A DNA stretch of 45,367 bases, from the NCBI GenBank assembly GCA_022360905.1, contig JAKSBX010000024.1, forward strand, positions 1-45,367, in the 5' to 3' direction. The translations under genes and the position numbers were made by a program. The notes under the pieces were generated by a model. The model did not search any database. It was not told where the DNA came from and was given only the letters and a program-made list of their open reading frames with translations. How positions within the stretch are numbered: position 1 is the first letter of the stretch; each line of letters begins with the position of its first letter. Origin of the DNA: Chromatiales bacterium. Lineage in GTDB: Bacteria > Pseudomonadota > Gammaproteobacteria > Chromatiales > Chromatiaceae. Shown here piece by piece: positions 14,597 through 27,786 of the stretch.

Positions 14597-15334
14597 TCAA
14601 TTCGGTGCCAGCTGCCGTCCATAGCCGACCCTGGCACAGCCTAATCCACAGCTTGAGCGCTTCTCCGACAAGGGAAACTTGGCCAGTCGCAGTTTCAGAT
14701 AGCGGTAGAGTTCATCCAACCAGACGGGCTCTTCCGCTGCCGTGACTGCCCGGCTGCGGAAGTCGTAGGGAACAATCAGTACGGCCGCCCTCTCCACACC
14801 GAGTCTGGCCACCAGATAGAAAAGTTCCTCGATATAGTGATTGCCGATCGCCAGGCAACCGGCCGACCAGGCACTCCCATGGATGTAGATATTCGATCCG
14901 GGTGAATGGCGCTCCTCGAGACCGGCCTGCACCCAATCGAAGGCGTTGGGATAGTTGAGCCTCATCGACAGATGAAAATGGCTGTTTGGGTTTAGGCCGA
15001 CGATGCGGTAGAAGCCTTCCGGCACCTGTTTGTCACCCTCCCGTAGCTTGGGCCCGGCTTCACCGCTGGCGGCGAAGATGGCGTAGTCGTGGATGAACCA
15101 CCAACGCTGCTGGGAGTAGGCCCACAACTCCAAACGACGACTCTCTTTCAATGCGATCAGCTGCACCCGCTGAGGGGGAAAGTCGACACCGGCCTGTTCG
15201 AAGCGGGCGGCGATACGTTGCCCGGCGTCCCGATCCAGCTGCTCCATGACAGCCTCGAGGGGTGCATTGGGTGCTGCCTGGGCCGCCAACGCCCAAAAAA
15301 TCAGTAACAAAATCCAAAACTTCATTGCCTGCAT
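14597..15334 (-). CDS. L,D-transpeptidase-fold protein (YafK/DpaA-like), periplasmic
   Basis: A 245-aa exported protein with the YkuD fold. The signal peptide is about residues 1-20 (from MQAM or MKFW). The catalytic motif is H152-G-x3-S-x-G-C160 (HGSAWSAGC). Upstream of it are GPK-x4-D and PEGFYRI, and after it an N-x-YIEELF segment; these resemble E. coli YafK/DpaA (246 aa), which cuts the Braun lipoprotein-peptidoglycan link rather than forming cross-links. A role in peptidoglycan/lipoprotein remodelling is therefore likely. Its start overlaps the end of the amidotransferase gene by 13 nt (ATG 15334, or 4 nt from ATG 15325), so the two are probably translationally coupled. Confidence 0.85.
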   Translation of the reverse strand: MQAMKFWILLLIFWALAAQAAPNAPLEAVMEQLDRDAGQRIAARFEQAGVDFPPQRVQLIALKESRRLELWAYSQQRWWFIHDYAIFAASGEAGPKLREGDKQVPEGFYRIVGLNPNSHFHLSMRLNYPNAFDWVQAGLEERHSPGSNIYIHGSAWSAGCLAIGNHYIEELFYLVARLGVERAAVLIVPYDFRSRAVTAAEEPVWLDELYRYLKLRLAKFPLSEKRSSCGLGCARVGYGRQLAPN

Positions 15335-16032
15335 AGCACTCTGTTCAGCCAGTTACCGTAGATAATAGCGGAGATCTCGTGCAGCCGGGCAATCTGCTGA
15401 TCTAGATTCTGCAAAATGGTCTCAGCGGATTGACGGCATGACGTGTGGGCGTGCAGATCGCTGCCGTAACGTTCAATCCAGTTCTTAATCATCGGTTGGG
15501 TCATCTCCAGATGAAACTGCAGACCCAGATGATCTCCCAGAGCAAATCCCTGGTGGGGGTAGCAGTCACTCTCCATGATCCATCGGCTGCCGGCGGGTAA
15601 AGTGAAGGTGTCCGCATGCCAATGAAACGCCATGAACTGCTCGGGCAACCCCCGCAGCCACCCCGCCTGATCATGCTGCGGAATGCCTCGTACCGGATGC
15701 CAGCCGATCTCCATGTCGTCACCTCGGGTTACCTCACCGCCCAATGCCCGACTGATCATCTGAGCCCCGAAACAGATACCCAGGACTGGCAGACCCACCT
15801 CAATCGCCTTGCGTATCAGCGCCAGTTCCCCCGCCATCCAGGAGAGTTGGTCGTTGACACTTACCCCCGCTCCCATAAAGACCAGTGCGGAGACATCATC
15901 GGTTTGCTGTGGCACCGGATTAGCTTCATCCACGCAGACCATTTCCCAGGGTACGGAGCGTTGATGCAGATAGTCCCCGAGAAAGCCCGGAGGCTTGCAG
16001 ACCATATGGCGGAAGATTCGAATCGGCTTCAT
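15322..16032 (-). CDS. Class I glutamine amidotransferase (GMP synthase-like, stand-alone)
   Basis: A 236-aa cytoplasmic protein with the type 1 glutamine amidotransferase fold. The nucleophile elbow is GICFGAQ with C87, and the catalytic His-Glu pair is H174-x-E176 in LQFHLEMT. An oxyanion-type glycine segment (VFMGAGVSVND) lies near residue 52. No synthetase domain is attached, so the acceptor substrate is unknown; stand-alone members include gamma-glutamyl hydrolases and amidotransferases of amine or peptide metabolism. Its 3' end overlaps the L,D-transpeptidase gene, which suggests a shared transcript. A cell-wall amidation role is possible but only by context. Confidence 0.85.
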   Translation of the reverse strand: MKPIRIFRHMVCKPPGFLGDYLHQRSVPWEMVCVDEANPVPQQTDDVSALVFMGAGVSVNDQLSWMAGELALIRKAIEVGLPVLGICFGAQMISRALGGEVTRGDDMEIGWHPVRGIPQHDQAGWLRGLPEQFMAFHWHADTFTLPAGSRWIMESDCYPHQGFALGDHLGLQFHLEMTQPMIKNWIERYGSDLHAHTSCRQSAETILQNLDQQIARLHEISAIIYGNWLNRVLCRQ

Positions 16033-16143: not shown

Positions 16144-16716
16144 TCAGCCGGCAATTTCTGCACGGACGATGTAACGCAGCGGTCCCCCAGGTATCAATAC
16201 ATCAAAAGGGAAACAGGTGACCAGGATCAGCTCCTGGGGACCTGTCAGGGGAATCTGCCATCCCTGCCGCTGATCAACCACCAGATGTTCAACCACCCGA
16301 TAGTCTGTCTGCCTGCCATCGCTCCCCTGAAGCTCGAGAATATCACCGATCCGCAGATCTTTGAGAAAACGAAAATGGGTATCCCGGTGACCGGAGATAA
16401 AACTGCGCCCCACCCCACCGGGCGGGGTACTCTGTTCCGCCCAGCCCGGACCAAAGGCCAGCGCTGAGCCACTATCGCCACTGAGTACCAGACGGCTCAC
16501 CCCGAGGCGGGGTGATTCGAGCCTGGCTACCGGCCAGGTGTCCGCCCAGGGCCAGGGTAGAGCCTGCGGCTGGCCATTCAGTGTCTGCTGCCAGGCGAGA
16601 TGGATCAGCCCCTGGGCAAGCCAGGCCTTGGCTTCGATCCACAGCCCCTTTGCCACCATGCCGCCGCCGAACAGCGCAATCAGCAGGGCGACCGACTGAA
16701 CCAGTCTCAGTCCCAC
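16144..16716 (-). CDS. Class GN sortase of the proteobacterial dedicated sortase (Pds) system
   Basis: A 190-aa membrane-anchored transpeptidase. An N-terminal helix (~6-25) holds it at the inner membrane. The catalytic triad is visible: H110 in SGHRDTH, C168 in VTCFPF and R181 in PLRYIV. Class GN enzymes are the one-target sortases of marine Gram-negative bacteria, encoded beside a VIT-VWA target. Here the target gene ends 3 nt upstream (TGA 16722-16720). The predicted start is GTG 16716; an ATG at 16720 is out of frame. It is the last gene of the minus-strand operon pdsO, small ORF, target, sortase. The chemistry is known for sortases generally; attachment to what, in this cell, is not established. 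Confidence 0.92.
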   Translation of the reverse strand: MGLRLVQSVALLIALFGGGMVAKGLWIEAKAWLAQGLIHLAWQQTLNGQPQALPWPWADTWPVARLESPRLGVSRLVLSGDSGSALAFGPGWAEQSTPPGGVGRSFISGHRDTHFRFLKDLRIGDILELQGSDGRQTDYRVVEHLVVDQRQGWQIPLTGPQELILVTCFPFDVLIPGGPLRYIVRAEIAG

Positions 16717-16719
16717 CCA

Positions 16720-18825
16720 TCAGCCCCGATCGACAAGCCAGTTTAACCTGTTGCCATTGACCCTTGAACCTAGCCACAGGGCGATCCAGGCCAGACCCAA
16801 AAGTGCCATCCCGATCAATAGATAGGTTGGCGCCCAGGTGGCCGTCCTGGGCAGCGGCCCGAATACCGCCTGAGCCGACCAGCCGGCCGGCAGACTGACC
16901 GGTAGATCCCCACCGTGCAGCGACTCATCCGCCGGCCTCACCGGAGTCTTCTCTACCGCCACCAGGCTGGTGTAGGGTGAGACCAATTGGTGCTCCAGTG
17001 CAATTTTCAGGACCTGTTCACGCCGCTGCTGCAAAGTGATGGCAGTCGATGCCATGATCGATTTGATCCGTTCCCTGGCCCACAGGGCATGTACCCCGGA
17101 TCGCCGGGTCTCCCCGTTACCAAGATCGACCAGTCGTCTCCAGAGTGTCTCACCCCGTTCACCCGTCACCTGGAGTCGACCATCGAGATCCGCCCCTTTG
17201 AGAGCCAACAACAGAGGTTCACCCAGGTAGAGATCGGGCAGACGCTGCGGTTCTACCTCAAGTTCTCCGCGACCCTGCCAGTCGAGCCGAATATCTCTCA
17301 TACTGGGGTGCTCAAGCTTGGTAAAGAGTTTCTGCATGGCGCTGGAGACCTCCGACAGATCCCCGATATAGCTGAACGAGCCACGGCCAAAATCGGCCGC
17401 CCGCCGCATAAAATGGCTGTTCGGTGCTGATCCGATTCCGACCGTGAAGAGTCGGCTGTCGCCCAGCTTGTCCTGGATCAGGCGAAACAGCTGCTGCTCA
17501 TTGCCGACACTGCCATCGGTGAGAAAAACGATCTGACGCAAACGTTCTGCCTGGGCACGCTGTCTCAGGGCCAATTCGAGAGCCGGCATCATCTCGGTCC
17601 CGCCATCGGCACGAAGCCGGTCGATAAAAGCGATCGCTCGCTGCTGATTGGTGCTGGTTGCTGCTTGGGGATCCGAGAACAGGGATTCACTGCGATTGTT
17701 GAAGGCGATCAGGTTGAACCGGTCATTTGACTTGAGACGGCTGACAGCCAGTTTCAAAGCAGCTTTGGCCTGCGCCATGGAGGGGCCGCTCATCGATCCG
17801 GAACGGTCGATAATGAAGACCAGCTCCCTCGACAACACCTGCTCGGTCGTCCCACCAAGCGGGGGCATCAACATCAATAACGCGTAATCCTGCCCCTGCC
17901 ACTGTTCACGAAACAGGGCCAGTTCCGGTTCTGCGCCGATCTGCGGACGCCAGTTGATGACAATATCCCGATCCGCCTGTACTTCACCATCCGCCAGCCT
18001 TAGATGGACCACACCCGGCTCGTTCCGCTCTTCCACCATACGGTGATATCGACTGACCACCTCCGACAGAGGCATACCGGCATCGATCCGAACCTCCATC
18101 GCCAGGGGATTGATCAGACCGGCGCCCTGCGCAATAACCGGCGGTGTAATAGCGGCAGCCTCAGCTTCAGATATTTGCTTCGGAATATAGCGGGGGGCCA
18201 CCACCATGGGGAATCGCAGTTCGAACGCTTCCCCGGTAAAACGCACCTGTTGCTGATATTCGATCGTTACCCGAACCTGCTCACCCGGCGCAATGTTGGT
18301 GGCCGAAAGGGTAAAGATATTGGGTCGTTGCTGAGACAGCAGACTGGCTCTTTTACCCGTCTCTCTGGCCTGCTTAAAGATCCGCTTGGCTTCCGCCTTC
18401 TCTTCGATCACCCCGTCAATACGGCGGTCGCCGATCGCCATCCTCATCCGCTCCACCGCACTTCCCTCCGCCAGGGGAAACCGGTAGTTGCCCTCCATCC
18501 AGATTTGGCTGGGATTGGTAAACACCTGCTCCACTTTCACCCAGGCCAGCATCCCCGCCACATCGATATCGACTTTGGTATTGAGCAGTGGCGCCATCTC
18601 GATGTGACGCCCGTCCAGACTCATCAGCTGCAGCCCGGCCGCAGACTCACCGGTTGGATCGGCCTGTACACTGCTCCAGCCGAACACCAGCAGGATCAGT
18701 AACAGTCCGCCAGACACCCCAGTCATAATCGCGGCCAGCAGGGTAAACAGCATATCGATGACAAAGGCTCTGCTGAAGTGGATTTTGAGCGGCGCGTTGA
18801 GATCAGTTTCTCTGTTTGCAGCCAT
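16720..18825 (-). CDS. Marine proteobacterial sortase target protein (VIT + VWA domains)
   Basis: A 701-aa surface protein, the dedicated substrate of the neighbouring sortase. A hydrophobic N-terminal region (~20-50) acts as signal anchor. A VIT (inter-alpha-trypsin) domain covers about 60-190, and a VWA domain starts near 325 with an intact MIDAS motif DRSGSMS and a conserved Thr/Asp set (FLTDGS), so it can bind divalent cations and probably a protein or matrix ligand. The C-terminus has the sorting signal: LPRTATWAP from residue 658, a hydrophobic helix and a short polar tail, with LPxTA instead of LPxTG. GGGAGG sits before ATG 18825. The last ~20 nt of a small upstream ORF overlap its start. 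Confidence 0.92.
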   Translation of the reverse strand: MAANRETDLNAPLKIHFSRAFVIDMLFTLLAAIMTGVSGGLLLILLVFGWSSVQADPTGESAAGLQLMSLDGRHIEMAPLLNTKVDIDVAGMLAWVKVEQVFTNPSQIWMEGNYRFPLAEGSAVERMRMAIGDRRIDGVIEEKAEAKRIFKQARETGKRASLLSQQRPNIFTLSATNIAPGEQVRVTIEYQQQVRFTGEAFELRFPMVVAPRYIPKQISEAEAAAITPPVIAQGAGLINPLAMEVRIDAGMPLSEVVSRYHRMVEERNEPGVVHLRLADGEVQADRDIVINWRPQIGAEPELALFREQWQGQDYALLMLMPPLGGTTEQVLSRELVFIIDRSGSMSGPSMAQAKAALKLAVSRLKSNDRFNLIAFNNRSESLFSDPQAATSTNQQRAIAFIDRLRADGGTEMMPALELALRQRAQAERLRQIVFLTDGSVGNEQQLFRLIQDKLGDSRLFTVGIGSAPNSHFMRRAADFGRGSFSYIGDLSEVSSAMQKLFTKLEHPSMRDIRLDWQGRGELEVEPQRLPDLYLGEPLLLALKGADLDGRLQVTGERGETLWRRLVDLGNGETRRSGVHALWARERIKSIMASTAITLQQRREQVLKIALEHQLVSPYTSLVAVEKTPVRPADESLHGGDLPVSLPAGWSAQAVFGPLPRTATWAPTYLLIGMALLGLAWIALWLGSRVNGNRLNWLVDRG

Positions 18826-18964
18826 CGCGGCCTCCCATCTGTGCTTTTTTCTGTTTCACGGCCCGCCGGGGCGGCACGGCAACCCGACGACAACTGAAGC
18901 CGAGAATCTGTTCCGGCGAGCCGTAAAGAAAGGCTTCGCTGATTGGCTGAAGCCTCGCTTTCAT
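18803..18964 (-). CDS. Possible small ORF (53 aa) between pdsO and the sortase target
   Basis: ATG 18964 overlaps the pdsO stop as ATGA, the classical signature of coupled translation, and the frame runs to TGA 18803-18805, 23 nt inside the target gene. The peptide is basic, begins MKARLQPISEAFLYG and has one Cys (SCRR); it has no membrane segment. I do not recognise it. It could be a real fifth component, or simply a reading frame that carries ribosomes from pdsO to the target gene, whose GGGAGG ribosome binding site lies inside it. Confidence 0.35.
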   Translation of the reverse strand: MKARLQPISEAFLYGSPEQILGFSCRRVAVPPRRAVKQKKAQMGGRDGCKQRN

Positions 18965-19647
18965 GAAGACTCTCCATGCAGCAGGGTGAGTTGCACCATG
19001 CGGTCAAAGGCGAGACCTTCCACATCGGTCAACGGATAGACGGCAGCGGACTCCCCCTGATACCGCATCTTGATCCGCTCGGATGAGAGACCGGCATCGA
19101 TCAGCATTTTGGCCACCGCCTCGGCACGCTGGCGACTCAGTTGGTGATTGAACGCCTCTGTGCCACGCTGATCGGCTCCGGCTTCAACCAGCAGCTGAAA
19201 TTGGGGGAAGGCTTTGAGCATCTCCGCCAGGGAGTTCAGTTGCTCAACCATCTTCGGCTCTATCTGACTGCTACCGGTACGAAATCCCAGGCAGAAGCTG
19301 AATCCCTGTTGGAGAGCAAGTAGTGACTCTTTCCCCTGTTGATGTTGAAACTGTTGCTGGTGGAGTTGGGCCTGATCCAAGAGGAAATCGGGCTCTGTCT
19401 GAGTATCTGGAAAGGTTTTTGCGGCTAACGCCAACTTCTGATTCTGCGCCTGCAGATCACCGATCACCGCACCACCGGTAAAACCGAGAACCGCGCCAGG
19501 CGGTCCACCCAACAGGCCACCGGCCAGCAGGCCAAGCAGAGAGCCGTAAAACCCCTCTTTGTCTGTCAACTCAGCTTGATCCTGGGCAAACACGGGTTGC
19601 TGTAACAGCAGACCGGCCAAAGAGACGATGATAAGATGCTTTTTCAT
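18961..19647 (-). CDS. pdsO: Sortase-associated OmpA-like protein PdsO
   Basis: A 228-aa envelope protein of the Pds system. The signal peptide is MKKHLIIVSLAGLLLQQPVFAQ. It is followed by a glycine-zipper segment (about 33-60, LLAGGLLGGPPGAVLG), which may insert in a membrane, then a coiled-coil-like Gln-rich part and a C-terminal OmpA/MotB domain with an R-x3-Q...R-x3-A pattern (NHQLSRQRAEAVAKML) that normally binds peptidoglycan. The frame is open further to 19701, but AGGAG at 19656-19660 (minus) and the signal peptide fix the start at ATG 19647. First gene of the minus-strand sortase operon. In the family, PdsO always accompanies the dedicated sortase; its precise role is unknown. Confidence 0.88.
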   Translation of the reverse strand: MKKHLIIVSLAGLLLQQPVFAQDQAELTDKEGFYGSLLGLLAGGLLGGPPGAVLGFTGGAVIGDLQAQNQKLALAAKTFPDTQTEPDFLLDQAQLHQQQFQHQQGKESLLALQQGFSFCLGFRTGSSQIEPKMVEQLNSLAEMLKAFPQFQLLVEAGADQRGTEAFNHQLSRQRAEAVAKMLIDAGLSSERIKMRYQGESAAVYPLTDVEGLAFDRMVQLTLLHGESS

Positions 19648-19759
19648 TTTACTTACTCCTGGATGTTGAACCAGCGCACCCTCCATGGTGGACAGTGGCA
19701 CTCCTTGCCGGCGCCGGAATACTTTGGTTTCCGGGAGTAATTACACACCTGAGAAATGG

Positions 19760-19779
19760 CCCGTTTGGAACCAAACGGG
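19760..19779. promoter_or_regulatory. Palindrome upstream of pdsO, candidate operator
   Basis: CCCGTTTGG AA CCAAACGGG is a perfect 9-bp inverted repeat with a 2-nt centre, about 115 nt upstream of the pdsO start. The 9-mer GAACCAAAC of its right half recurs at 24964-24972, just before pdsR. PdsR or another regulator could bind it; that is inference. Confidence 0.45.
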
Positions 19780-19848
19780 GGCTATCCAATGACAAAATGT
19801 GGCAGAAAAATGGCAGCAACCAGTTCTACGCCTACAATAAGGGGCTGT

Positions 19849-19877
19849 TGACACTTAGGCATTCAGGAATTAAAGAG
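19849..19877 (+). promoter_or_regulatory. Possible promoter of the PstS-like/porin/GGDEF-EAL operon
   Basis: A consensus TTGACA (19849-19854) is followed after 17 nt by a poor -10 (TAAAGA, 19872-19877). The start codon is 180 nt away, so a leader or another promoter is possible. Confidence 0.22.
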
Positions 19878-20060
19878 TATTTGCCGAGTTGTTGGGAATA
19901 TTTTGATTTGGAGATGGATTGGAAGAGTGATACCTAAAAAAGGATGACAGATTGACTGTTTCATCAACTGTTTAAAAAAACCATAAACAATTTATGGACT
20001 AAAGTTACTGATGAGGAATGCCGACACGGAAAAGCATCTGCAAGGAACTGCCCTTAAAAA

Positions 20061-20480
20061 ATGATAACCAACCATCGAGCATTTGCAGTCGGTTTGCTGC
20101 TTTGTGTATCAAGTTCAGCAAATTCTGTCGACCTAGTGATCAATCGGGACATCGATTACGAGAGTCTTTCCCGCAATACCCTACGTTCCATTTTCAGTAT
20201 GCGTATGACCCAGTGGCCGAATGGCACACCGATACGGGTCTTTGTTATGGGGGATAAAACATCACAACACGCTGACTTCAGTAAACATGTACTTGGGGTT
20301 TTCCCCCATCAGTTGCGACGCGCCTGGAATCGACAGATCTACTCCGGAATGGGACAGGCCCCGATGAAAGTCAATACTGAAGCAGAGATGCTGCAGCAGA
20401 TTGAAAACACACCTGGCGCTATCGGCTATCTTTCCGAGGACTATATCAATGAGCGTGTACGGAAGCTCTCCGTTGAATAA
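20061..20480 (+). CDS. Short PstS-like periplasmic binding protein
   Basis: A 139-aa exported protein of the compact phosphate-binding-protein-like type (PBP-like domain), less than half the length of PstS. The signal peptide covers residues 1-22. Characteristic segments are LSRNTLRSIFSMRMTQWPNG, a SKHVLG region, WNRQIYSGMGQAP and the closing NTPGAIGYLSEDY, seen in small proteins annotated as phosphate ABC transporter substrate-binding. No transporter genes are nearby; instead a porin gene starts within its 3' end and a GGDEF-EAL gene follows. It may serve as a periplasmic ligand sensor for that c-di-GMP enzyme. The ligand cannot be read from sequence. The ribosome binding site is weak. Confidence 0.8.
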   Translation: MITNHRAFAVGLLLCVSSSANSVDLVINRDIDYESLSRNTLRSIFSMRMTQWPNGTPIRVFVMGDKTSQHADFSKHVLGVFPHQLRRAWNRQIYSGMGQAPMKVNTEAEMLQQIENTPGAIGYLSEDYINERVRKLSVE

Positions 20481-21657
20481 GTGCTGGGCCACAAGGCTTT
20501 TGGCACTGCTGCTGCTATCTGTCAATGGGTTGTCAGCGTCTCAACTCGACCAACTGGACGGTGCCTTACAGGTGCATGGGTTCTTGACCCAGGCCTATGT
20601 AAAGACAACCGAGAACAGCTTCTTTGGCGACAGTCAGGATGGCAGTTGGGATTTTCGGGAGCTGGGCATTAATAGCTCATATCGTTTCACCCCAAGCACT
20701 CTGGCATCGATTCAGCTTCTCTCCCGCCGTGCCGGCGAGATGTATGACGGCTCTCTGGACCTGGACTATGCCCAGCTCGATACCACCTTCTATATGGCGG
20801 ATGCCAATCGCATCGGCATTGTCGTGGGTCGTTATAAGAATCCCTTCGGCCTCTACAACGACACCCGGGACGTAGCCGCAACCCGTCCTGGTATTTTTAT
20901 GCCTCAAGCCATCTACTGGGATCGGGTGAGAAACATGGTGCTATCGAATGACGGTGCTCAGTTGTTTGGCGATATGTTGGTTGACGATCACCGTTTTTCA
21001 CTTCGCTTGATCGGTGGAAAAACCCCAATCGACGAAAATGTTGAAAAGTCCTATCTCAACCCGCAGCTCGACCCTGAAATGGAACAGGATGGGCTGACAC
21101 TGGGCGGGCGATTGCTCTACGAATGGGATGGAGGACGTTTCAATCTTGCCTACAGCAGTGCCCAATTAAAACTCGATGCGGAGACCAGCCAGCTAGCGGA
21201 TGGCCAAGTCCACATCGACTATCGGGTTCTCTCTGCCCAATACAACAGTGGCAGTTGGAGTCTGACAGTAGAGTATATGCAGGAACCTCTAAACTACTCC
21301 GGTTTTGGCGGCCTGCTGGATGCCGGTGATACCACGCTGGATGGCTACTACCTGCAAGGCACCTACCGACTGTTCGACGATCTGGAACTGTTTGCCCGTT
21401 ATGAGGAGAGTCACTATGACAAGGAGGACAAAAGAGGCGAAAAGACGGCTCAGCGGTTGGGACTGGAAGCACACAATTTCTATAGCAGGGTCTCCACGCT
21501 GGGGCTACTCTGGGAGGTAGCGGACGGACTGATCGTTCGGGGCGAGTTCAGCCAGGTGGACGGCACGATTTTTCTCTCCAACCTGGAAAATCCACCACCT
21601 AACGAGCGGTCCCGTAACTGGAACCTCTTTTCACTGCTCGTCTCCTACAGTTTTTGA
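20473..21657 (+). CDS. Outer-membrane beta-barrel porin-like protein
   Basis: About 394 aa. TTG 20473 gives an ideal signal peptide (NKCWATRLLALLLLSVNGLSA) with GGAAG 7 nt before it; ATG 20449 is an in-frame alternative but adds polar residues before the signal. The mature part has alternating amphipathic strands (RFTPSTLASIQLLSR, NRIGIVVGRYKNP, ALFARYEESHYD-type) and ends in aromatic Phe (LLVSYSF), the outer-membrane insertion signal. It resembles single-polypeptide porins found next to substrate-binding proteins. Its start overlaps the end of the PstS-like gene, and its stop overlaps a possible TTG start of the GGDEF-EAL gene, so three genes form one coupled operon. Confidence 0.82.
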   Translation: MNKCWATRLLALLLLSVNGLSASQLDQLDGALQVHGFLTQAYVKTTENSFFGDSQDGSWDFRELGINSSYRFTPSTLASIQLLSRRAGEMYDGSLDLDYAQLDTTFYMADANRIGIVVGRYKNPFGLYNDTRDVAATRPGIFMPQAIYWDRVRNMVLSNDGAQLFGDMLVDDHRFSLRLIGGKTPIDENVEKSYLNPQLDPEMEQDGLTLGGRLLYEWDGGRFNLAYSSAQLKLDAETSQLADGQVHIDYRVLSAQYNSGSWSLTVEYMQEPLNYSGFGGLLDAGDTTLDGYYLQGTYRLFDDLELFARYEESHYDKEDKRGEKTAQRLGLEAHNFYSRVSTLGLLWEVADGLIVRGEFSQVDGTIFLSNLENPPPNERSRNWNLFSLLVSYSF

Positions 21658-21665
21658 GCAAGCAG

Positions 21666-24596
21666 ATGCCGCAACAAGATCTGAATGGCTTAATTGGCGA
21701 GCACAAGGAAGAGAAACAGCCTTACTTCCTCAGTCTGAAGTGGAAAGTGATGCTGCTGTTCAGTCTGGTGGTGCTGATCATGAATGCCGGGCTGGCCGGC
21801 ATGGGCTACCTGCAGCAACTCAAGCTGTTCGACACCTATCAACAACAGATCCATGAACAGCAGAACAGACAGGTCAGGTCGCTGCTCGATACCAGCTTCT
21901 TTCGCCTGGAACAGATCGCACTGATGATCCCCTCCCTGGCGGAGGCCGCCAGCCAGGACAACACCATTCCACTGAGTGAAAAGCTACAGACCTTTTTCAT
22001 GCACAGTGCCGTTACCCTGGAGATGGAGTGGGGCCTCGAAGAGGCGGCCTATTACAGCAGTGAGAACATTCTGGAGTTTAACTGGCAGACCGGTGCCCTT
22101 GGCGCCCCCTTCATAGAGCTTGTCAATTCGGTCAACAAGCTGGAGACACCGTTGACCATGCTGCAATGTGATATTCGCTGCAGCCAGTATGTGGCCACGC
22201 CTCTGCTCTACAAAGGCAAGCATGCCGGAGTCATCCTGGTGGGACGATCCATCGCCGATCTGATTATCGAATTCAACGAACTGGCGAAAACCGATATTGC
22301 CGTCATCAGCCACATCGAACAGCCCTCCCGGTTCGACAATCACTCCCGATATTTAAACAACTGGCAGCGCTATATCAGCGCCTCGAGCAACCTGAAAAAA
22401 CTACTACCCCTGTTTGAGGATACGGCTCAAAAGGTCGATTTAATGACCCTCATCGATCAGGGCCACACAACCCGATACAACCGTGAGGATTACACCTTCA
22501 ATCTGGTTCCGGCCAGCAGTGACGCCTCAGTACTGTCCGCAGATTTCATTCTGGTGAGTAATATCACATCGGTAGTACAGCAGATCCGGAAAGCAACCAT
22601 CCACTCGGTATTGATCGGCATCCTCGGTTTTATTCTCTCTGAACTGATGTTGGCTGCCGTACTGTGGAATCCGATGAAACGTCTGCTGATGATCTCGGAC
22701 AGTCTACCGCTGTTGGCAAAAAATGCCTTTCAACAGGTACGCCAAACGCTCAGTCTGAAACACCACGACTGGTATCAGGATGAGATCGATATCGCCAGTG
22801 AATCCGCCATAGAATTGACCTACACACTGGAAAGCCTCAATGAAGAGATCGCCCATAACACCAACAGCCTGATTAAACGCAGTGAAGAGCTGGCACGGGA
22901 GCGGGATTTCCTCAGTACCATCATGAACAGCGCACAGGTAATCATCCTCACCCAGGATATGGATGGTGCCATCCTGACGATGAACACCGAAGGGTGTAAA
23001 TTTATCGGGATTAATGACTATCGGCGGGCAAGCGGCTATTTCAGCGATCTCTTCATGAATGCCGAGGTTGCCAGTGAGATGCTGCCGGTGATGAACGGCT
23101 TGAGGCAGGGAATGATCCATGTCTACCAGCATGACGCATCTGCCTTCTCATCGGATGGACAGAATAAAACCATCTCCTGGGTCCACTCCAACCTGATCGA
23201 AAAGCCGGTTGCCGGCCTACCTGTGGTACTCTCCGTCGGGCTCGATATCACCGACCGGGAACTGGCGGAACAGCGGTTGGCCTGGCTGGCTAACCACGAC
23301 CCGCTGACTGAACTCAACAACCGTCGTTACTTCCAGACCGAGTTTGAAAAAATCATCACCCTGGCTGAGCGCTACAACCACTCCAGTGCACTGCTGTTTT
23401 TCGATCTGGACCAGTTCAAGTACATCAACGATTCCAGCGGACACCACACCGGCGATGCCATGTTGCAGATCGTGGCCCGCAAACTGCGTGAGATCACCCG
23501 TTCAACCGATCTTATCGCACGTCTGGGGGGAGATGAGTTCGCCATTGTCATACCGGAAGCGGATATTCCGGCGGCCACACGCTATGCGGACAAGATTCTC
23601 AATGAACTGAAAAAGATTACCATTCCACTGAAGGGCCACAGCCACCGGGTCTCTGCCAGCATCGGTATCGTTGCCTACCCCAACCACGGCAGCAACGCCA
23701 ACGAACTGCTCTCCAATGCGGATCTCGCCATGTATCAGGCCAAAGAGTCGGGCCGCGACCAGTGGCACCTCTTCTCCAGCAGTGAACAGGCTCGAGAACA
23801 GATGAGTGCCCGAGCCACCTGGAAGGACAAGATCGAGCGAGCCCTGACAGAGGATGGTTTCATACTCTACTTCCAGCCGATTCTGGAGATCAGCAGCGGT
23901 ATCATCTCTCACTACGAAGTACTGATCAGAATGGTGGAAAAGGATGGTTCGATCGCCATGCCCGGTGAGTTCATTCCAGTTGCCGAGCGTACCGGTCTTA
24001 TTCACCAGATCAATCGTTATGTTTTACGAGCCTCAGTAGCCAAACTGGCCAACCTCAACAAGCAGGATATCGATATCACCCTGTCGATCAACCTGTCGGG
24101 CCGGGTGATCGACGACCCGGAACTGCTCCCGCAGCTGACCCACCTGGTCAACAGCAGCGGCATCGATCCCACCCGACTGGTTTTCGAGTTGACAGAGACC
24201 GCGGCGTTGGCGGATGTGAATGCGGCCGAACGGCTGATGAGAGAACTGCAATCGATTGGCTGCCGCTTTGCACTGGATGATTTCGGTGTCGGCTTCTCTT
24301 CCTTCTACTATCTGCGTGAACTCCCTCTGGACATCGTCAAGATTGACGGCTCTTTCATCAGACAACTGCCCACCAACTCCATGGATCAGGTATTCGTCAA
24401 GGCATTGACAGAAATGGCCACCGCTCTGGGCAAGGATACGGTCGCTGAATTTGTCGAAGACGAAGCAACCCTGATACAGCTCAAAGAGATCGGCGTGATC
24501 TATGCCCAGGGTTACTACATCGGCAGACCCTCCCCAGAAATACCGGTGAAAAACCGGCCAACGCAAAAATTCCGAACAGAGACTCTGCAAAACTGA
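21666..24596 (+). CDS. Membrane GGDEF-EAL protein with periplasmic sensor and PAS domain
   Basis: A 976-aa inner-membrane c-di-GMP enzyme. Transmembrane helices lie at about 25-48 and 313-336 and enclose a ~260-residue periplasmic sensor. It contains a paired-Cys segment (MLQCDIRCSQY). A linker/coiled coil, a PAS domain (~415-530), GGDEF (621-625, RLGGDEF, intact) and an EAL domain follow. The EAL motif is E751-V-L and DDFGVG begins at D871, compatible with activity. I used ATG 21666; TTG 21654 overlapping the porin stop is possible. Third gene of the PstS-like/porin operon, so the periplasmic binding protein may signal through its sensor. The gene lies between pdsO and pdsR, suggesting control of surface-protein or biofilm functions. 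Confidence 0.9.
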   Translation: MPQQDLNGLIGEHKEEKQPYFLSLKWKVMLLFSLVVLIMNAGLAGMGYLQQLKLFDTYQQQIHEQQNRQVRSLLDTSFFRLEQIALMIPSLAEAASQDNTIPLSEKLQTFFMHSAVTLEMEWGLEEAAYYSSENILEFNWQTGALGAPFIELVNSVNKLETPLTMLQCDIRCSQYVATPLLYKGKHAGVILVGRSIADLIIEFNELAKTDIAVISHIEQPSRFDNHSRYLNNWQRYISASSNLKKLLPLFEDTAQKVDLMTLIDQGHTTRYNREDYTFNLVPASSDASVLSADFILVSNITSVVQQIRKATIHSVLIGILGFILSELMLAAVLWNPMKRLLMISDSLPLLAKNAFQQVRQTLSLKHHDWYQDEIDIASESAIELTYTLESLNEEIAHNTNSLIKRSEELARERDFLSTIMNSAQVIILTQDMDGAILTMNTEGCKFIGINDYRRASGYFSDLFMNAEVASEMLPVMNGLRQGMIHVYQHDASAFSSDGQNKTISWVHSNLIEKPVAGLPVVLSVGLDITDRELAEQRLAWLANHDPLTELNNRRYFQTEFEKIITLAERYNHSSALLFFDLDQFKYINDSSGHHTGDAMLQIVARKLREITRSTDLIARLGGDEFAIVIPEADIPAATRYADKILNELKKITIPLKGHSHRVSASIGIVAYPNHGSNANELLSNADLAMYQAKESGRDQWHLFSSSEQAREQMSARATWKDKIERALTEDGFILYFQPILEISSGIISHYEVLIRMVEKDGSIAMPGEFIPVAERTGLIHQINRYVLRASVAKLANLNKQDIDITLSINLSGRVIDDPELLPQLTHLVNSSGIDPTRLVFELTETAALADVNAAERLMRELQSIGCRFALDDFGVGFSSFYYLRELPLDIVKIDGSFIRQLPTNSMDQVFVKALTEMATALGKDTVAEFVEDEATLIQLKEIGVIYAQGYYIGRPSPEIPVKNRPTQKFRTETLQN

Positions 24597-24619
24597 GGCG
24601 GCTGGAAAAGATGGCTCAG

Positions 24620-24821
24620 TCCGCAAATGAACGCGAATAAACGCAAATTTAGAGTCTATTTCCAGCAATGTGTCCCATGGTTTTCTGCGCCACAATACTG
24701 ACTCTGCTTCAATCTTCCACATCATTTAGAAGATACAAAAAAACAGAAAGCCTCATAAGCTGATATGTTTCTAATCCAATTTTAACGACAACATTTGCGT
24801 TTATTCGCGTTCATTTGCGGA
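24620..24821. repeat. Perfect 29-bp inverted repeat pair enclosing 144 bp (MITE-like)
   Basis: The 29 nt at 24620-24648 (TCCGCAAATGAACGCG...) are the exact reverse complement of 24793-24821. The AT-rich 144-nt interior has no gene. A single copy with one mismatch occurs at 34906-34934 and a degenerate copy (23 of 29 matches) at 30197-30225, so the unit is a dispersed repeat and the pair may be a composite or MITE-like element. Confidence 0.85.
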
Positions 24822-24932
24822 CGAATAATAAAAAAAGACCATTTACCGTGATTAATACCCATTCGCGGCCATGAACCCATGCACCGAATTCCCACTTCAG
24901 GTTAAACAATAGTTAGCAGCCCCCTCTCCAGG

Positions 24933-24938
24933 TATAAT
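24933..24938 (+). promoter_or_regulatory. Consensus -10 box upstream of pdsR
   Basis: TATAAT lies 52 nt before the pdsR start. The -35 position (about 24910) is poor, which suits an activator-dependent promoter. Confidence 0.45.
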
Positions 24939-24990
24939 CGAATATCTTAAGACGGATGCAATCGAACCAAACAGATAACCAGACAGTATT

Positions 24991-25683
24991 GTGGCTAAGA
25001 GAGAAATTGCCATCATCGAAGACGAGCAGGCGATCCGTGACAATACGATCGACTATCTAACCCGCCAGGGTTATCGGGTAAAGGGTTTTGCCAGCCGTGC
25101 TGAGGCACTCACTGCCTTCAGCGGCGATCTGCCCGACCTGGTGATCCTGGACATCGGCCTGGCGGATGATGTGGATGGTGGATTTGAGCTCTGTCGGGAG
25201 CTACGTAGTCGCTCCAGCACCCTGCCGATCATCTTTCTTACCGCCAGAGACAGCGATTTCGATACGGTGGCCGGCCTGCGCCTCGGAGCGGACGACTACA
25301 TCAGCAAGGAGACGAGTCTGCCTCACCTGGTGGCACGGATTGCCGCTCTGTTTCGACGCATCGAGGCGATGCAGGAACCGCAAACACCGCAACAACCGCT
25401 GCAACGCAATGATCTTCGTATCGATGCGGACCGGTTACTGGCTGAGTGGCGGGGATCCCCGCTACAGCTCACGGTGACCGAATTCTGGATGCTGCACGCC
25501 CTGGTTCGCCACCCGGGCCATGTACGCAGTCGGGATAAGCTGATGGAGGAAGCCCATATCTATGTGGACAGCAGCAGCATCTCCACCCACATCAAACGCA
25601 TTCGACGAAAATTCCTCGAAGTCGATCCTGAGTTTGCTCATATCGACACGGTCTACGGCGCGGGATACCGCTGGAAACCCTAA
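24991..25683 (+). CDS. pdsR: Response regulator of the dedicated sortase system, PdsR
   Basis: A 230-aa OmpR/PhoB-type regulator. The receiver has acidic E10-D11-E12, phosphoacceptor D54 (VILDIGL), T84 and K106. The C-terminal winged helix carries the EFWMLHALVRHPGHVRSRDKL recognition region and ends GYRWKP. The stretch GLRLGADDYISKETSLPHLVARI and the ILDIGLADD-x-DGGFELCREL region match what I know of the sortase-associated regulator PdsR. The start is GTG 24991, as the receiver begins at once. Three nucleotides separate it from pdsS, so the pair is one operon. It presumably regulates the pdsO-target-sortase operon 5 kb away on the other strand, and perhaps itself. Confidence 0.88.
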   Translation: MAKREIAIIEDEQAIRDNTIDYLTRQGYRVKGFASRAEALTAFSGDLPDLVILDIGLADDVDGGFELCRELRSRSSTLPIIFLTARDSDFDTVAGLRLGADDYISKETSLPHLVARIAALFRRIEAMQEPQTPQQPLQRNDLRIDADRLLAEWRGSPLQLTVTEFWMLHALVRHPGHVRSRDKLMEEAHIYVDSSSISTHIKRIRRKFLEVDPEFAHIDTVYGAGYRWKP

Positions 25684-25686
25684 ACA

Positions 25687-27786
25687 GTGCAGACGCCCCC
25701 CGGTTTCCTTCGGTCCCTACGCTTCAAGCTGCTGCTGGCCTCACTAACCCTATTGCTGATTCCCTGGGCGGGTTACCACTATCTGCAGGGCATGGAGCTG
25801 GCGCTGAGAGAGGCACAACAGCGGTTATTGATGAACCGTGCCGAAATCATCGCCAATCTGTTGGCCGTGCAATCGGTGAAATGGCTTGCACAACAACCTG
25901 TCAACTCAAGTACCACACCCTCTCTCTACGCCTTCCCACTGGACAACCCGCCAGTGATCGATGGTTATGCCGACGAGTGGCTGACCCTCAAACCTCAGGC
26001 AGAGCATTTCAGTGCAACTGGTGCCCAAAACCGGACATTAGCCTTGGATTGGCTGGCCGGATTCCATCGCAACGACCTCTATCTGCTGCTGGAAGTCGAG
26101 GATGAGCAACTGACCTACCCGCCCAACGAGCAGAATATTGCCGCTGGCGATCATTTAATACTTGCCCTGCCCGGTGACGGGGGTAACAGCAGACAGCTGC
26201 TGCTCGGCACCCCGGCACCAGGCTGGATCCATGTTCAAGAGCAAGAGAGCGGTCAATCCATTCCGGGATTCTCCGGAGAGTGGCAGGAGACAGAGACCGG
26301 CTATCGCGTCGAACTACGCCTGCCCCGCACGCTGACGGCAGGCAGAATCTCCGTGGCGGTAATCGATTATGACCAGACCGGGCGAAAACCCGCGGTAAAA
26401 CTGGCCACCTCAGGCCTGCAATACAACACCAGTCTCGCCTACCTCAGCCGGCCCACAGCCGAGGTGGAAACAATACTGCACGGTCTGGCAGACGAGCGTC
26501 ATCGCTATACGCTGCTCAACCCGCTGCGGCAGGTAATTGGACGACATGGGGCGGTCCATACGGCCACCCACAAGCTGCAGAGCCTGCCCCAGCGACTGAT
26601 CTCCCTGATACTTTCTGATGATCAACCTGAACCCTTCAGCGAGCGTGAGAGACTGGGCCGTCTGGATGGCCCGGAGATTCGACAGGCGCTCTCCGGTGAG
26701 GGCGCTGTTTATCGCTATCAGGCGCCCGGCACCAATCTGACGATGCTTTCGAGCGCCTATCCAATCAGGGTAGATGGGAAAATCATGGGGGCATTGGTTG
26801 TCGAACAGAGCAGCCAGGAAATCTTGATACTTCAGCAGAGTGCGATTGAGAATCTGCTATTGATCAGCCTGGGTCTGTTTATTGTGACCGGAGGAAGCCT
26901 GCTACTGCTGGCCACATCCATCACCAGCCGAATCACCCGTCTCAGTACCAAATACCAGCAGGCCGTCAGTCCAGACGGCCGGCTGCTGAAGCCGATTACC
27001 ACCTCCAAACAGAGAGATGAGTTGGGCCAGCTCGATGCCAGCCTCAGTGCGGTGTTGAAACGTACCAAGGAGTACAGCCACTATCTTGAATCCATGGCCT
27101 CACGACTGGCGCATGAATTTCGGACCCCGCTGAGTGTGATTCGATCCTCCCTCGAAAACCTGGAGGCCGAGATTGACTCAAATCCGCAAACCAAGGCGCA
27201 ATCCTCTGCCGCATTGGTCTATGCAAAACGTGCCCAGGAGGGGACGCTCAGACTGAACCAGATTTTGACCCGTTTACGGGAAGCCACACGACTGGAGCAG
27301 TCCCTAGAACAGACCGAAGTAGTTGAAACCGATCTTACAATGCTCCTGCAGGGACTCTCGCAAGGATACGCAGACAGCTACCCATCGATTCGATTCGAAA
27401 CCAAACTGCCTGAGAAGCCGATCATCAGCCAGGTTTCGCCTGAGCTGATCAGCCAAGCGTTGGATAAACTGATCAGTAATGCGGTGGATTTCCATCTGAA
27501 TGAGAGCCCCATAGGGATCGAGCTGCATTACGATGGAGAAAATAGCGTCGTCATCCGTGTGGTGAATCGGGGGCCTCTGCTTGATGAGCGCACACAACAA
27601 ACTCTGTTCTCTTCAATCAGCAGCCGTCGCACTTCATCCAGCGATCAGCAACCTCATCTCGGTTTAGGGCTCTATCTGGTGCGATTGATTGCCGAGTTCC
27701 ATCAAGGCAGGGTGTGGGCACAAAACCTAACGGATGGGGTTAGCTTCACGATGGAGTTACCCCTCAATCAGGGCTCAGGGAAATAA
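25687..27786 (+). CDS. pdsS: Sensor histidine kinase of the dedicated sortase system, PdsS
   Basis: A 699-aa inner-membrane kinase starting at GTG 25687. Helices lie at about 9-30 and 389-412. The periplasmic part contains a CBM9-like domain (about 80-240) beginning DNPPVIDGYADEWL, a fold that in xylanases binds carbohydrate chain ends, followed by further sensor sequence. A HAMP-like linker leads to HisKA with H476 (LAHEFRTPLS) and a HATPase domain whose N box (LISNAVDFH) and GLGLYLVR G box are present. The combination of CBM9-like sensor and PdsR partner is typical of PdsS. It probably senses a glycan or surface state and phosphorylates PdsR. The ligand is unknown. Confidence 0.88.
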   Translation: MQTPPGFLRSLRFKLLLASLTLLLIPWAGYHYLQGMELALREAQQRLLMNRAEIIANLLAVQSVKWLAQQPVNSSTTPSLYAFPLDNPPVIDGYADEWLTLKPQAEHFSATGAQNRTLALDWLAGFHRNDLYLLLEVEDEQLTYPPNEQNIAAGDHLILALPGDGGNSRQLLLGTPAPGWIHVQEQESGQSIPGFSGEWQETETGYRVELRLPRTLTAGRISVAVIDYDQTGRKPAVKLATSGLQYNTSLAYLSRPTAEVETILHGLADERHRYTLLNPLRQVIGRHGAVHTATHKLQSLPQRLISLILSDDQPEPFSERERLGRLDGPEIRQALSGEGAVYRYQAPGTNLTMLSSAYPIRVDGKIMGALVVEQSSQEILILQQSAIENLLLISLGLFIVTGGSLLLLATSITSRITRLSTKYQQAVSPDGRLLKPITTSKQRDELGQLDASLSAVLKRTKEYSHYLESMASRLAHEFRTPLSVIRSSLENLEAEIDSNPQTKAQSSAALVYAKRAQEGTLRLNQILTRLREATRLEQSLEQTEVVETDLTMLLQGLSQGYADSYPSIRFETKLPEKPIISQVSPELISQALDKLISNAVDFHLNESPIGIELHYDGENSVVIRVVNRGPLLDERTQQTLFSSISSRRTSSSDQQPHLGLGLYLVRLIAEFHQGRVWAQNLTDGVSFTMELPLNQGSGK

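Follow-up and report, generated by a model that had tools for sequence, protein, structure and literature searches.

A c-di-GMP sensory operon inside a dedicated sortase locus of Candidatus Thiodiazotropha: probably an ancestral insertion that shares an address rather than an obligate function

Introduction

Why does a complete dedicated sortase (Pds) system hold, between its two divergent gene blocks, an operon for a cyclic di-GMP (c-di-GMP) enzyme? The question is raised by a stretch of 45,367 nucleotides (the window; GenBank assembly GCA_022360905.1, contig JAKSBX010000024.1, positions 1 to 45,367), in which the genes for the sortase, its VIT-VWA target and a PdsO-like protein lie on the minus strand, and those for a small PstS-like protein, a porin-like protein and a GGDEF-EAL protein (hereafter the trio), then PdsR and PdsS, on the plus strand. 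PdsR of the window's genome is 93% identical to that of Candidatus (Ca.) Thiodiazotropha endoloripes, a sulfur-oxidising symbiont of lucinid clams, and the genus is Ca. Thiodiazotropha, whose members are clam symbionts. A sequence-only reading of the window had described a complete Pds system split by a c-di-GMP operon, and had offered as explanations either control of display or release of the sorted protein by c-di-GMP or a simple chance insertion. All eight genes are present at the positions and on the strands it gave. Pds was scored with NCBIfam profiles and their curated cut-offs, the trio with Pfam. Of the five Pds proteins, the sortase, the target and PdsR pass; the scores of PdsO and PdsS are under their cut-offs, yet these are their best-scoring families and both genes are in the expected places in the locus. 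The trio genes overlap or abut, so that it is reasonable to regard them as one operon.

We consider the best explanation, with a probability of roughly 0.7, to be an ancestral insertion of a stand-alone sensory operon into the Pds gap followed by vertical inheritance, the two units sharing an address and not an obligate function. It is supported directly by the gene content, the genus-wide position, the congruent inheritance, a secondary loss of Pds with the trio kept, and two conserved DNA motifs; we infer what these motifs bind and the roles of PdsS and PdsR.

Conservation and inheritance within the genus

In 18 of the 22 genus genomes sampled the trio lies between both Pds halves, on a single contig from sortase to PdsS in 16 and across two contigs in G009 and G019. 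Two further genomes carry it beside one half, G012 on the right side and G021 on the left. Since the arrangement recurs on both sides in 18/22 genomes it is more than chance, and the comparison proposed in the sequence-only reading, whether close relatives share the trio, gives a yes within the genus. The locus of G007 is split on one contig and has no pdsO match, with sortase, target, PdsR and PdsS remaining. The trio tree and the Pds tree agree at high support among the 16 shared genus taxa and have the same rooting, which fits vertical inheritance after one insertion.

A natural experiment is provided by G017, the sister of G007 (support 1.0), in which neither a sortase match nor a PdsR above cut-off was found. 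The stretch from its YkuD gene to the trio still holds collinear remnants of the glutamine amidotransferase (GATase) gene and a 61-bp remnant of the 5′ end of the VIT-VWA gene. Directly upstream of the trio the sequence is 82% identical to that of G007, and downstream the identity stops within the pdsR upstream region. The trio itself is intact, with ratios of nonsynonymous to synonymous substitution rates (dN/dS) against G007 of 0.13 for the PstS-like gene, 0.17 for the porin and 0.12 for GGDEF-EAL; these are averages of both branches and cannot date the Pds loss. The corresponding ranges in four other species pairs are 0.00-0.15, 0.03-0.21 and 0.04-0.09. G017 has thus lost Pds on both sides and kept the trio, and therefore the trio can work without Pds and a dependence of the trio on Pds is unlikely. 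This natural Pds deletion is evidence of a kind that can separate shared address from shared function, and it bears on the trio's dependence only, not on any influence of the trio over Pds where both occur. As a side observation, the missing pdsO match in G007 perhaps marks an early step of Pds loss.

Conservation of gene order was compared with that of the neighbours in seven genus genomes. Left of the sortase, the window encodes GATase, a YkuD L,D-transpeptidase, a cytochrome c (cytC) and a class A penicillin-binding protein (PBP1b). The pairs PBP1b-cytC, cytC-YkuD, YkuD-GATase and GATase-sortase are adjacent in 7/7, as are GGDEF-EAL and pdsR; pdsO and the PstS-like gene are adjacent in 6/7, the exception being G007 with its missing pdsO match. 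One step further left, gene 10411 and PBP1b are adjacent in 1/7, and the gene 3′ of the window's pdsS is beside pdsS in none of the seven. As the four nearest left pairs are as well conserved, conserved adjacency alone is weak evidence for function, and we rejected it as proof. Together with G017, this leaves the functional link of the sequence-only reading unsupported as an obligate one.

The two partners outside the genus

With a profile of the PstS-like protein, relatives were detected in 103 of 369 class genomes, of which the genus contributes two. We surveyed 40 of their neighbourhoods, one per genome in listing order, omitting the genus and loci already in hand. A porin-size neighbour was present in 37/40, a GGDEF protein in 20/40 (18 also with EAL) and a methyl-accepting chemotaxis protein (MCP) in 5/40, and the window's gene order was found in 16/40. 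The porin expected in such a module is of about 400 aa; among the 40 aligned module porins, 11 match Porin_4 and 2 Porin_O_P, and among 26 sensor-size proteins, the window's included, 16 match dCache_3. Pds genes were found in 0/51 module loci outside the genus, where only weak kinase, OmpA and receiver similarities appeared. The trio is a member of a common stand-alone sensory module in Gammaproteobacteria, in which a half binding protein and a porin are combined with either a c-di-GMP enzyme or a chemoreceptor. As a side observation, the tubeworm symbionts have a second module (L169 and L170), in which a PstS-like/porin pair is flanked by a protein of 1557 aa and a large kinase-like protein of 1287 or 1145 aa.

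To collect Pds loci outside the genus, PdsR relatives were scanned for, which gave at least 560 loci; the best 80 were retained, and as Ca. T. endoloripes accounts for one of them, 79 are left. Many contigs are truncated and the left half is seen in 47/80, so that what is said of the gap itself relies on 46 loci from outside the genus. Among the 79, drawn from those best 80 of at least 560 and with the left half visible in 46, none has a PstS-like or porin match. The trio thus does occur mostly apart from Pds, as the sequence-only reading had supposed it would if there were no link; its companion expectation, that close relatives would lack the trio, failed.

Pds loci usually consist of two divergent blocks separated by a short gap. 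A gap above 1.2 kb occurs in 5/47 loci: L079 (the genus), L080, L083, L095 and L154, the last having a pdsO match that is possibly another OmpA-like gene. The tubeworm symbionts (L080) partly keep the same left neighbours, PBP1b, YkuD and GATase followed by the sortase, and their Pds gap holds an HNH nuclease gene and no trio. Their trio is on a different contig, with identities of 52-54%, 47% and 42-43%, beside a gene which we take to be purE. In two Sedimenticola-type gaps (L083, Sedimenticola; L050, a relative) a helix-turn-helix (HTH)-PBP regulator is accompanied either by a sigma-54 activator and MobB or by a histidine kinase. The gap of L095 is occupied by an SMC-like ATPase and a methyltransferase, that of L057 by a PD-(D/E)XK protein. 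The pds gap therefore holds unrelated genes in several lineages. In Shewanella, 4 of 7 Pds loci (L092, L102, L112, L158) have a gene for a GGDEF-like protein of about 345 aa lying tail to tail with the sortase gene, in an order unrelated to that of the trio.

These results bear on the proposal that the trio is a functional part of Pds, its c-di-GMP controlling display or release of the sorted protein. Congruent inheritance, an adjacency kept in 20/22 genomes and the different GGDEF gene beside the sortase gene in 4/7 Shewanella loci speak for it, and there is a precedent in kind in the Clostridioides difficile sortase substrate CD2831, which the relevant passage of its description places under c-di-GMP control (PMC6447587). 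Weighing more heavily, the trio exists without Pds in G017, the two are apart in tubeworm symbionts, none of the 51 module loci outside the genus has Pds, the four left pairs are equally conserved, and a scan of 16 window genes, a small part of the genome, revealed neither a protease nor a c-di-GMP effector. Nothing in this analysis shows c-di-GMP control of sorting, and we regard it as very unlikely.

Promoter and operator motifs

The trio has a putative promoter of its own, similar to those of sigma-28 (FliA). The elements CTAAAGT and CCG, about 62 to 35 bp before the trio start, are conserved in 20/20 genus loci, where together with the ribosome-binding region they are prominent by eye. The flagellin promoters of the genus read TAAAG[TA]T-N12-GCCG[TC]TA in 7/7 genomes, and FliA is over its cut-off in 22/22. 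The exact sigma-28 pattern exceeds its reversed control in G004 (5 vs 2), G013 (6 vs 0) and G007 (6 vs 2). A sigma-28 promoter as a general mark of the module was rejected (0/40 modules at the stringency used; 1/187 control upstream regions), and among nine further module loci only L071 has a match. The relevant passage on the streamlined Ca. Thiodiazotropha 'Aeq1' reports it to be without flagellar biogenesis (PMC9938160); because of this loss, and because G014 has no trio, we tried the idea that the trio tracks flagella rather than Pds, which was rejected since G014 is among the 22 genomes with FliA. Similar elements also lie immediately before type IV pilin-like genes or at their start (L187 and L193, in G000 and G007), and both L169 and L170 have one some 255 bp ahead of the 1557-aa frame.

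The second motif is a direct repeat with an 11-bp period, TGGCR-N6-TGGCR. In 43 non-genus Pds loci with a gap below 3 kb (L080 included) it is exact on the pdsR strand in 22 gaps and on the other strand in none; with one mismatch it is found in 39 loci vs 3. Exact matches have a density of 1.0 per kb in Pds gaps, compared with 0.011 per kb per strand in the remainder of these loci. The motif was derived from the genus loci and L080, some Woeseiaceae gaps were viewed before the final count, and related loci are counted singly, so the 43 are not 43 independent cases. An earlier score-based test of the same loci placed 23 in the top 5% on the plus strand and 3 on the minus strand. At up to one mismatch the other spacings are not flat (12 bp minus, 19/43; 13 bp plus, 17/43; 9 bp minus, 16/43), perhaps because the counted stretch begins at the end of the BLAST match and includes the 5′ part of pdsO or the target gene. 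Among exact matches the 11-bp plus-strand form reaches 22 loci and its 21-bp companion 15, with the next highest at 5. An extended pattern occurs three times in G000, the window's genome, once at this locus; in a set of eight genomes, four (G000, G002, G005, G013) have their Pds gap marked by it, with no match of the reversed control in any of the eight.

PdsR belongs to the class with a Trans_reg_C domain, and operators of the OmpR/PhoB type are oriented direct repeats of this architecture. From its spacing and orientation and from the class of PdsR, we propose TGGCR-N6-TGGCR as the PdsR operator, a specific and testable candidate across many Pds loci. The window's copy falls inside region 19648-20060, where the sequence-only reading had suggested looking for PdsR binding.

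Within the genus, the repeat is found in the pdsO-trio gap at up to one mismatch in 15 of the 19 Pds-bearing loci, exactly in 9. On the pdsR strand of the trio-pdsR gap it is found in 0/19, and an operator in that gap was rejected; the other strand there has weak 10-bp-spaced matches in L038, L041 and L047. This places the trio between pdsR and the candidate operator. In Pds-less G017 the repeat is gone.

The position of the operator bears on pure hitch-hiking, in which a neutral insertion with no regulatory effect would be kept since neither unit tolerates disruption. The miscellany in other lineages (HNH nuclease, HTH-PBP regulator, MobB, sigma-54 activator, histidine kinase, SMC-like ATPase, methyltransferase and PD-(D/E)XK protein) and the equal conservation of the row from PBP1b to the sortase speak for it. 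The operator is missing beside pdsR in 19/19 genus gaps, which makes some regulatory consequence for pdsR likely, and we hold pure hitch-hiking to be possible but on balance not probable. 'Simple chance insertion' also understates the case: the insertion would be ancestral to the genus and parts the candidate operator from pdsR.

The gap on the other side of the trio raises the possibility of transcriptional coupling, in which PdsR may control the trio along with the sortase operon, and transcription of the trio may read into pdsRS where the gap is short, a regulatory and not a biochemical link. In G001, G003 and G015 the trio ends 47-53 bp before pdsR, and in G012, once a frame change is taken into account, the distance is about 50 bp; the operator candidate lies in the pdsO-trio gap and not, on the pdsR strand, in the trio-pdsR gap; and G017 has lost the operator while its sigma-28-like element persists. 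On the other hand, the remaining 15 of 19 visible gaps measure 82-473 bp, and TTCATAAT or TATAAT occurs in 12/19, none of them among the four short gaps. The operator ends 174-197 bp before the trio's −35 in the window's clade and 46-61 bp before it in other clades, where further copies are found at 82 and 93. Such distances are long for an activator of the OmpR class. We therefore judge such coupling unlikely. An apparent overlap of GGDEF-EAL and pdsR in G012 (−7 bp) was rejected as proof of an operon, as it reflects a frame change near the gene's 3′ end relative to relatives; by eye, the intergenic sequence matches that of G001.

Weighing the explanations

According to the reading that we prefer, the trio would have been inserted once, in the ancestor of Ca. 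Thiodiazotropha, into the divergent promoter region of a complete Pds locus, and passed on vertically. The insertion point would lie between pdsR and the candidate operator, which stayed with the pdsO-target-sortase operon. The trio would be a separate transcription unit under its sigma-28-like promoter. Its half-PstS-like protein would be secreted, the porin would be placed in the outer membrane and the dCache-GGDEF-EAL enzyme in the inner membrane. Read as a solute sensor that sets c-di-GMP, the trio would most likely sense a small solute at the surface, which would enter by the porin and be received by the half-binding protein and the dCache domain; the output would be the c-di-GMP level, probably in the motile stage. 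PdsS and PdsR would detect an envelope signal, PdsR would regulate the pdsO-target-sortase operon through the TGGCR repeat, and attachment of the VIT-VWA protein would be the work of the sortase.

Several observations weigh against this account. The trio stays beside at least one Pds half in 20/22 genomes, though the synteny block stops right after pdsS. G014 carries Pds genes on broken contigs without a detectable trio: neither the PstS-like protein nor the porin nor the N-terminal portion of GGDEF-EAL has a match there. In 4/7 Shewanella loci a different GGDEF gene abuts or adjoins the sortase gene. The GGDEF-EAL dN/dS between G017 and G007 is raised above that of the other pairs, and constraint may be somewhat relaxed, although the value is still well below 1. 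As to the promoter, the trio element has a spacer of 13, one base longer than that of the flagellin promoters, and the window's box is GCCGACA and not GCCG[TC]TA; the exact pattern does not exceed its reversed control in G000 (6 vs 8), G025 (2 vs 2) or G057 (2 vs 2), and the element is absent from the 40 modules elsewhere. Finally, the short gap in 4/19 loci makes co-transcription of the trio with pdsRS plausible there.

A rewiring may also be considered, in which the trio has replaced pdsR beside the operator, phospho-PdsR adjusts the c-di-GMP sensor and sigma-28 read-through ties pdsRS to the flagellar programme. If true, a symbiont could switch from swimming to displaying a sorted surface protein on meeting its host, and we consider this quite improbable.

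Other features of the locus

The coordinates of the annotated features are given in Table 1. Judging by the reading frame, pdsO probably starts at ATG 19647 and not at GTG 19701, to which the open frame reaches, and the porin gene probably at TTG 20473. The sorting motif is LPxTA[TS] in 18/18 genus targets examined and MPQTAT in the tubeworm-symbiont target. Solved PstS chains are matched by the PstS-like profile across roughly residues 80-220, about the length of one lobe, with a best value of 2.1e-11. All 17 full-length genus proteins have intact GGDEF and EAL motifs, two further proteins being cut by contig ends, and the I-site RxxD is altered in 4/17 (G004, G010, G015, G020).

Table 1. Features of the split Pds locus in the window
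Feature	Coordinates	Strand	Evidence
Pds sortase (class GN)	16144..16716	-	TIGR03784, 196 bits (cut-off 158)
VIT-VWA sortase target	16720..18825	-	TIGR03788, 721 bits (cut-off 552)
LPRTAT sorting motif of target	16837-16854	-	followed by hydrophobic stretch and short C-terminal tail
PdsO-like OmpA protein	18961..19647	-	TIGR03789, 99 bits (cut-off 152); best-scoring family
Candidate PdsR operator, direct repeat TGGCA-N6-TGGCA, 11-bp period	19800..19815	+	motif conservation; putative binding
Sigma-28 (FliA)-like promoter, CTAAAGTTA-N12-GCCGACA	19999..20026	+	putative function
Small PstS-like protein, about one lobe of a periplasmic binding protein	20061..20480	+	PBP_like_2, 5.5e-9
Porin-like outer-membrane protein	20473..21657	+	Porin_4, weak, about 1.5e-4 to 1.7e-4, below gathering
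Membrane c-di-GMP enzyme: dCache_3, GGDEF with I-site, EAL	21654..24596	+	Pfam; motifs intact
Repeat element with 30-bp perfect inverted arms	24619..24822 (arms 24619-24648, 24793-24822)		between trio and pdsR
Putative −10 region (TATAAT) of pdsR's own promoter	24931..24942	+	TATAAT in the gap of 6/6 window-clade genomes; putative function
PdsR, OmpR/PhoB-class response regulator	24991..25683	+	TIGR03787, 353 bits (cut-off 336)
PdsS histidine kinase	25687..27786	+	TIGR03785, 530 bits (cut-off 612); full profile (residues 11-692)

With up to 2 mismatches, the arm core of the repeat element has 104 matches in G000 vs 1 for the reversed control; the counts are 119 in G008, 86 in G011, 70 in G004, 13 in G016 and 10 in G002, where the trio-pdsR gap is 150 bp and by eye lacks the element. 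In L080, and in those genus loci that extend far enough, the YkuD and GATase genes (window 14597-16032) are kept on the side of the sortase; G017 is the exception, GATase there being a relic. A second GGDEF-EAL-like gene lies downstream of pdsS in G004, G007, G010 and G020 (L034, L037, L040, L049; Pfam was run on the L034 copy). The two Pds contigs of G014 (L168 and L044) start with an identical translated stretch, which suggests a repeat at the breakpoints.

Comparison with known systems

Class GN sortases are described in the relevant passage of a 2023 paper as poorly described and of unknown role in Gram-negative organisms (PMC10581121). Literature searches found no text with 'proteobacterial dedicated sortase', with 'PdsO' and 'sortase', or with 'Thiodiazotropha' and 'sortase'; PdsR sites, or c-di-GMP together with Pds, were not met in passing, no search having been aimed at those words. 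The locus resembles the Pds system as defined by TIGR03784, 03785, 03787, 03788 and 03789 in having all five components in two divergent blocks, and differs from it in the three-gene sensory operon between the blocks and in a PdsO and a PdsS under the curated cut-offs.

With the modules of binding protein, porin and GGDEF/EAL protein (or MCP), of which a single literature search found no description, the trio shares gene order, a dCache_3 sensor and a PstS-like half domain, and it differs in lying inside Pds with a sigma-28-like promoter. In NspS-MbaA and ScrB-ScrC a binding protein is paired with a membrane GGDEF-EAL enzyme. The likeness to these is one of working idea, in that a periplasmic binding protein informs a GGDEF-EAL enzyme of a solute; here the PstS-like protein is about one lobe and a porin belongs to the operon. 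C. difficile CD2831, as its description has it in the relevant passage, is likewise a sortase substrate with c-di-GMP control, in a Gram-positive organism and through riboswitches regulated by c-di-GMP (PMC6447587), and no homology to the present locus is claimed.

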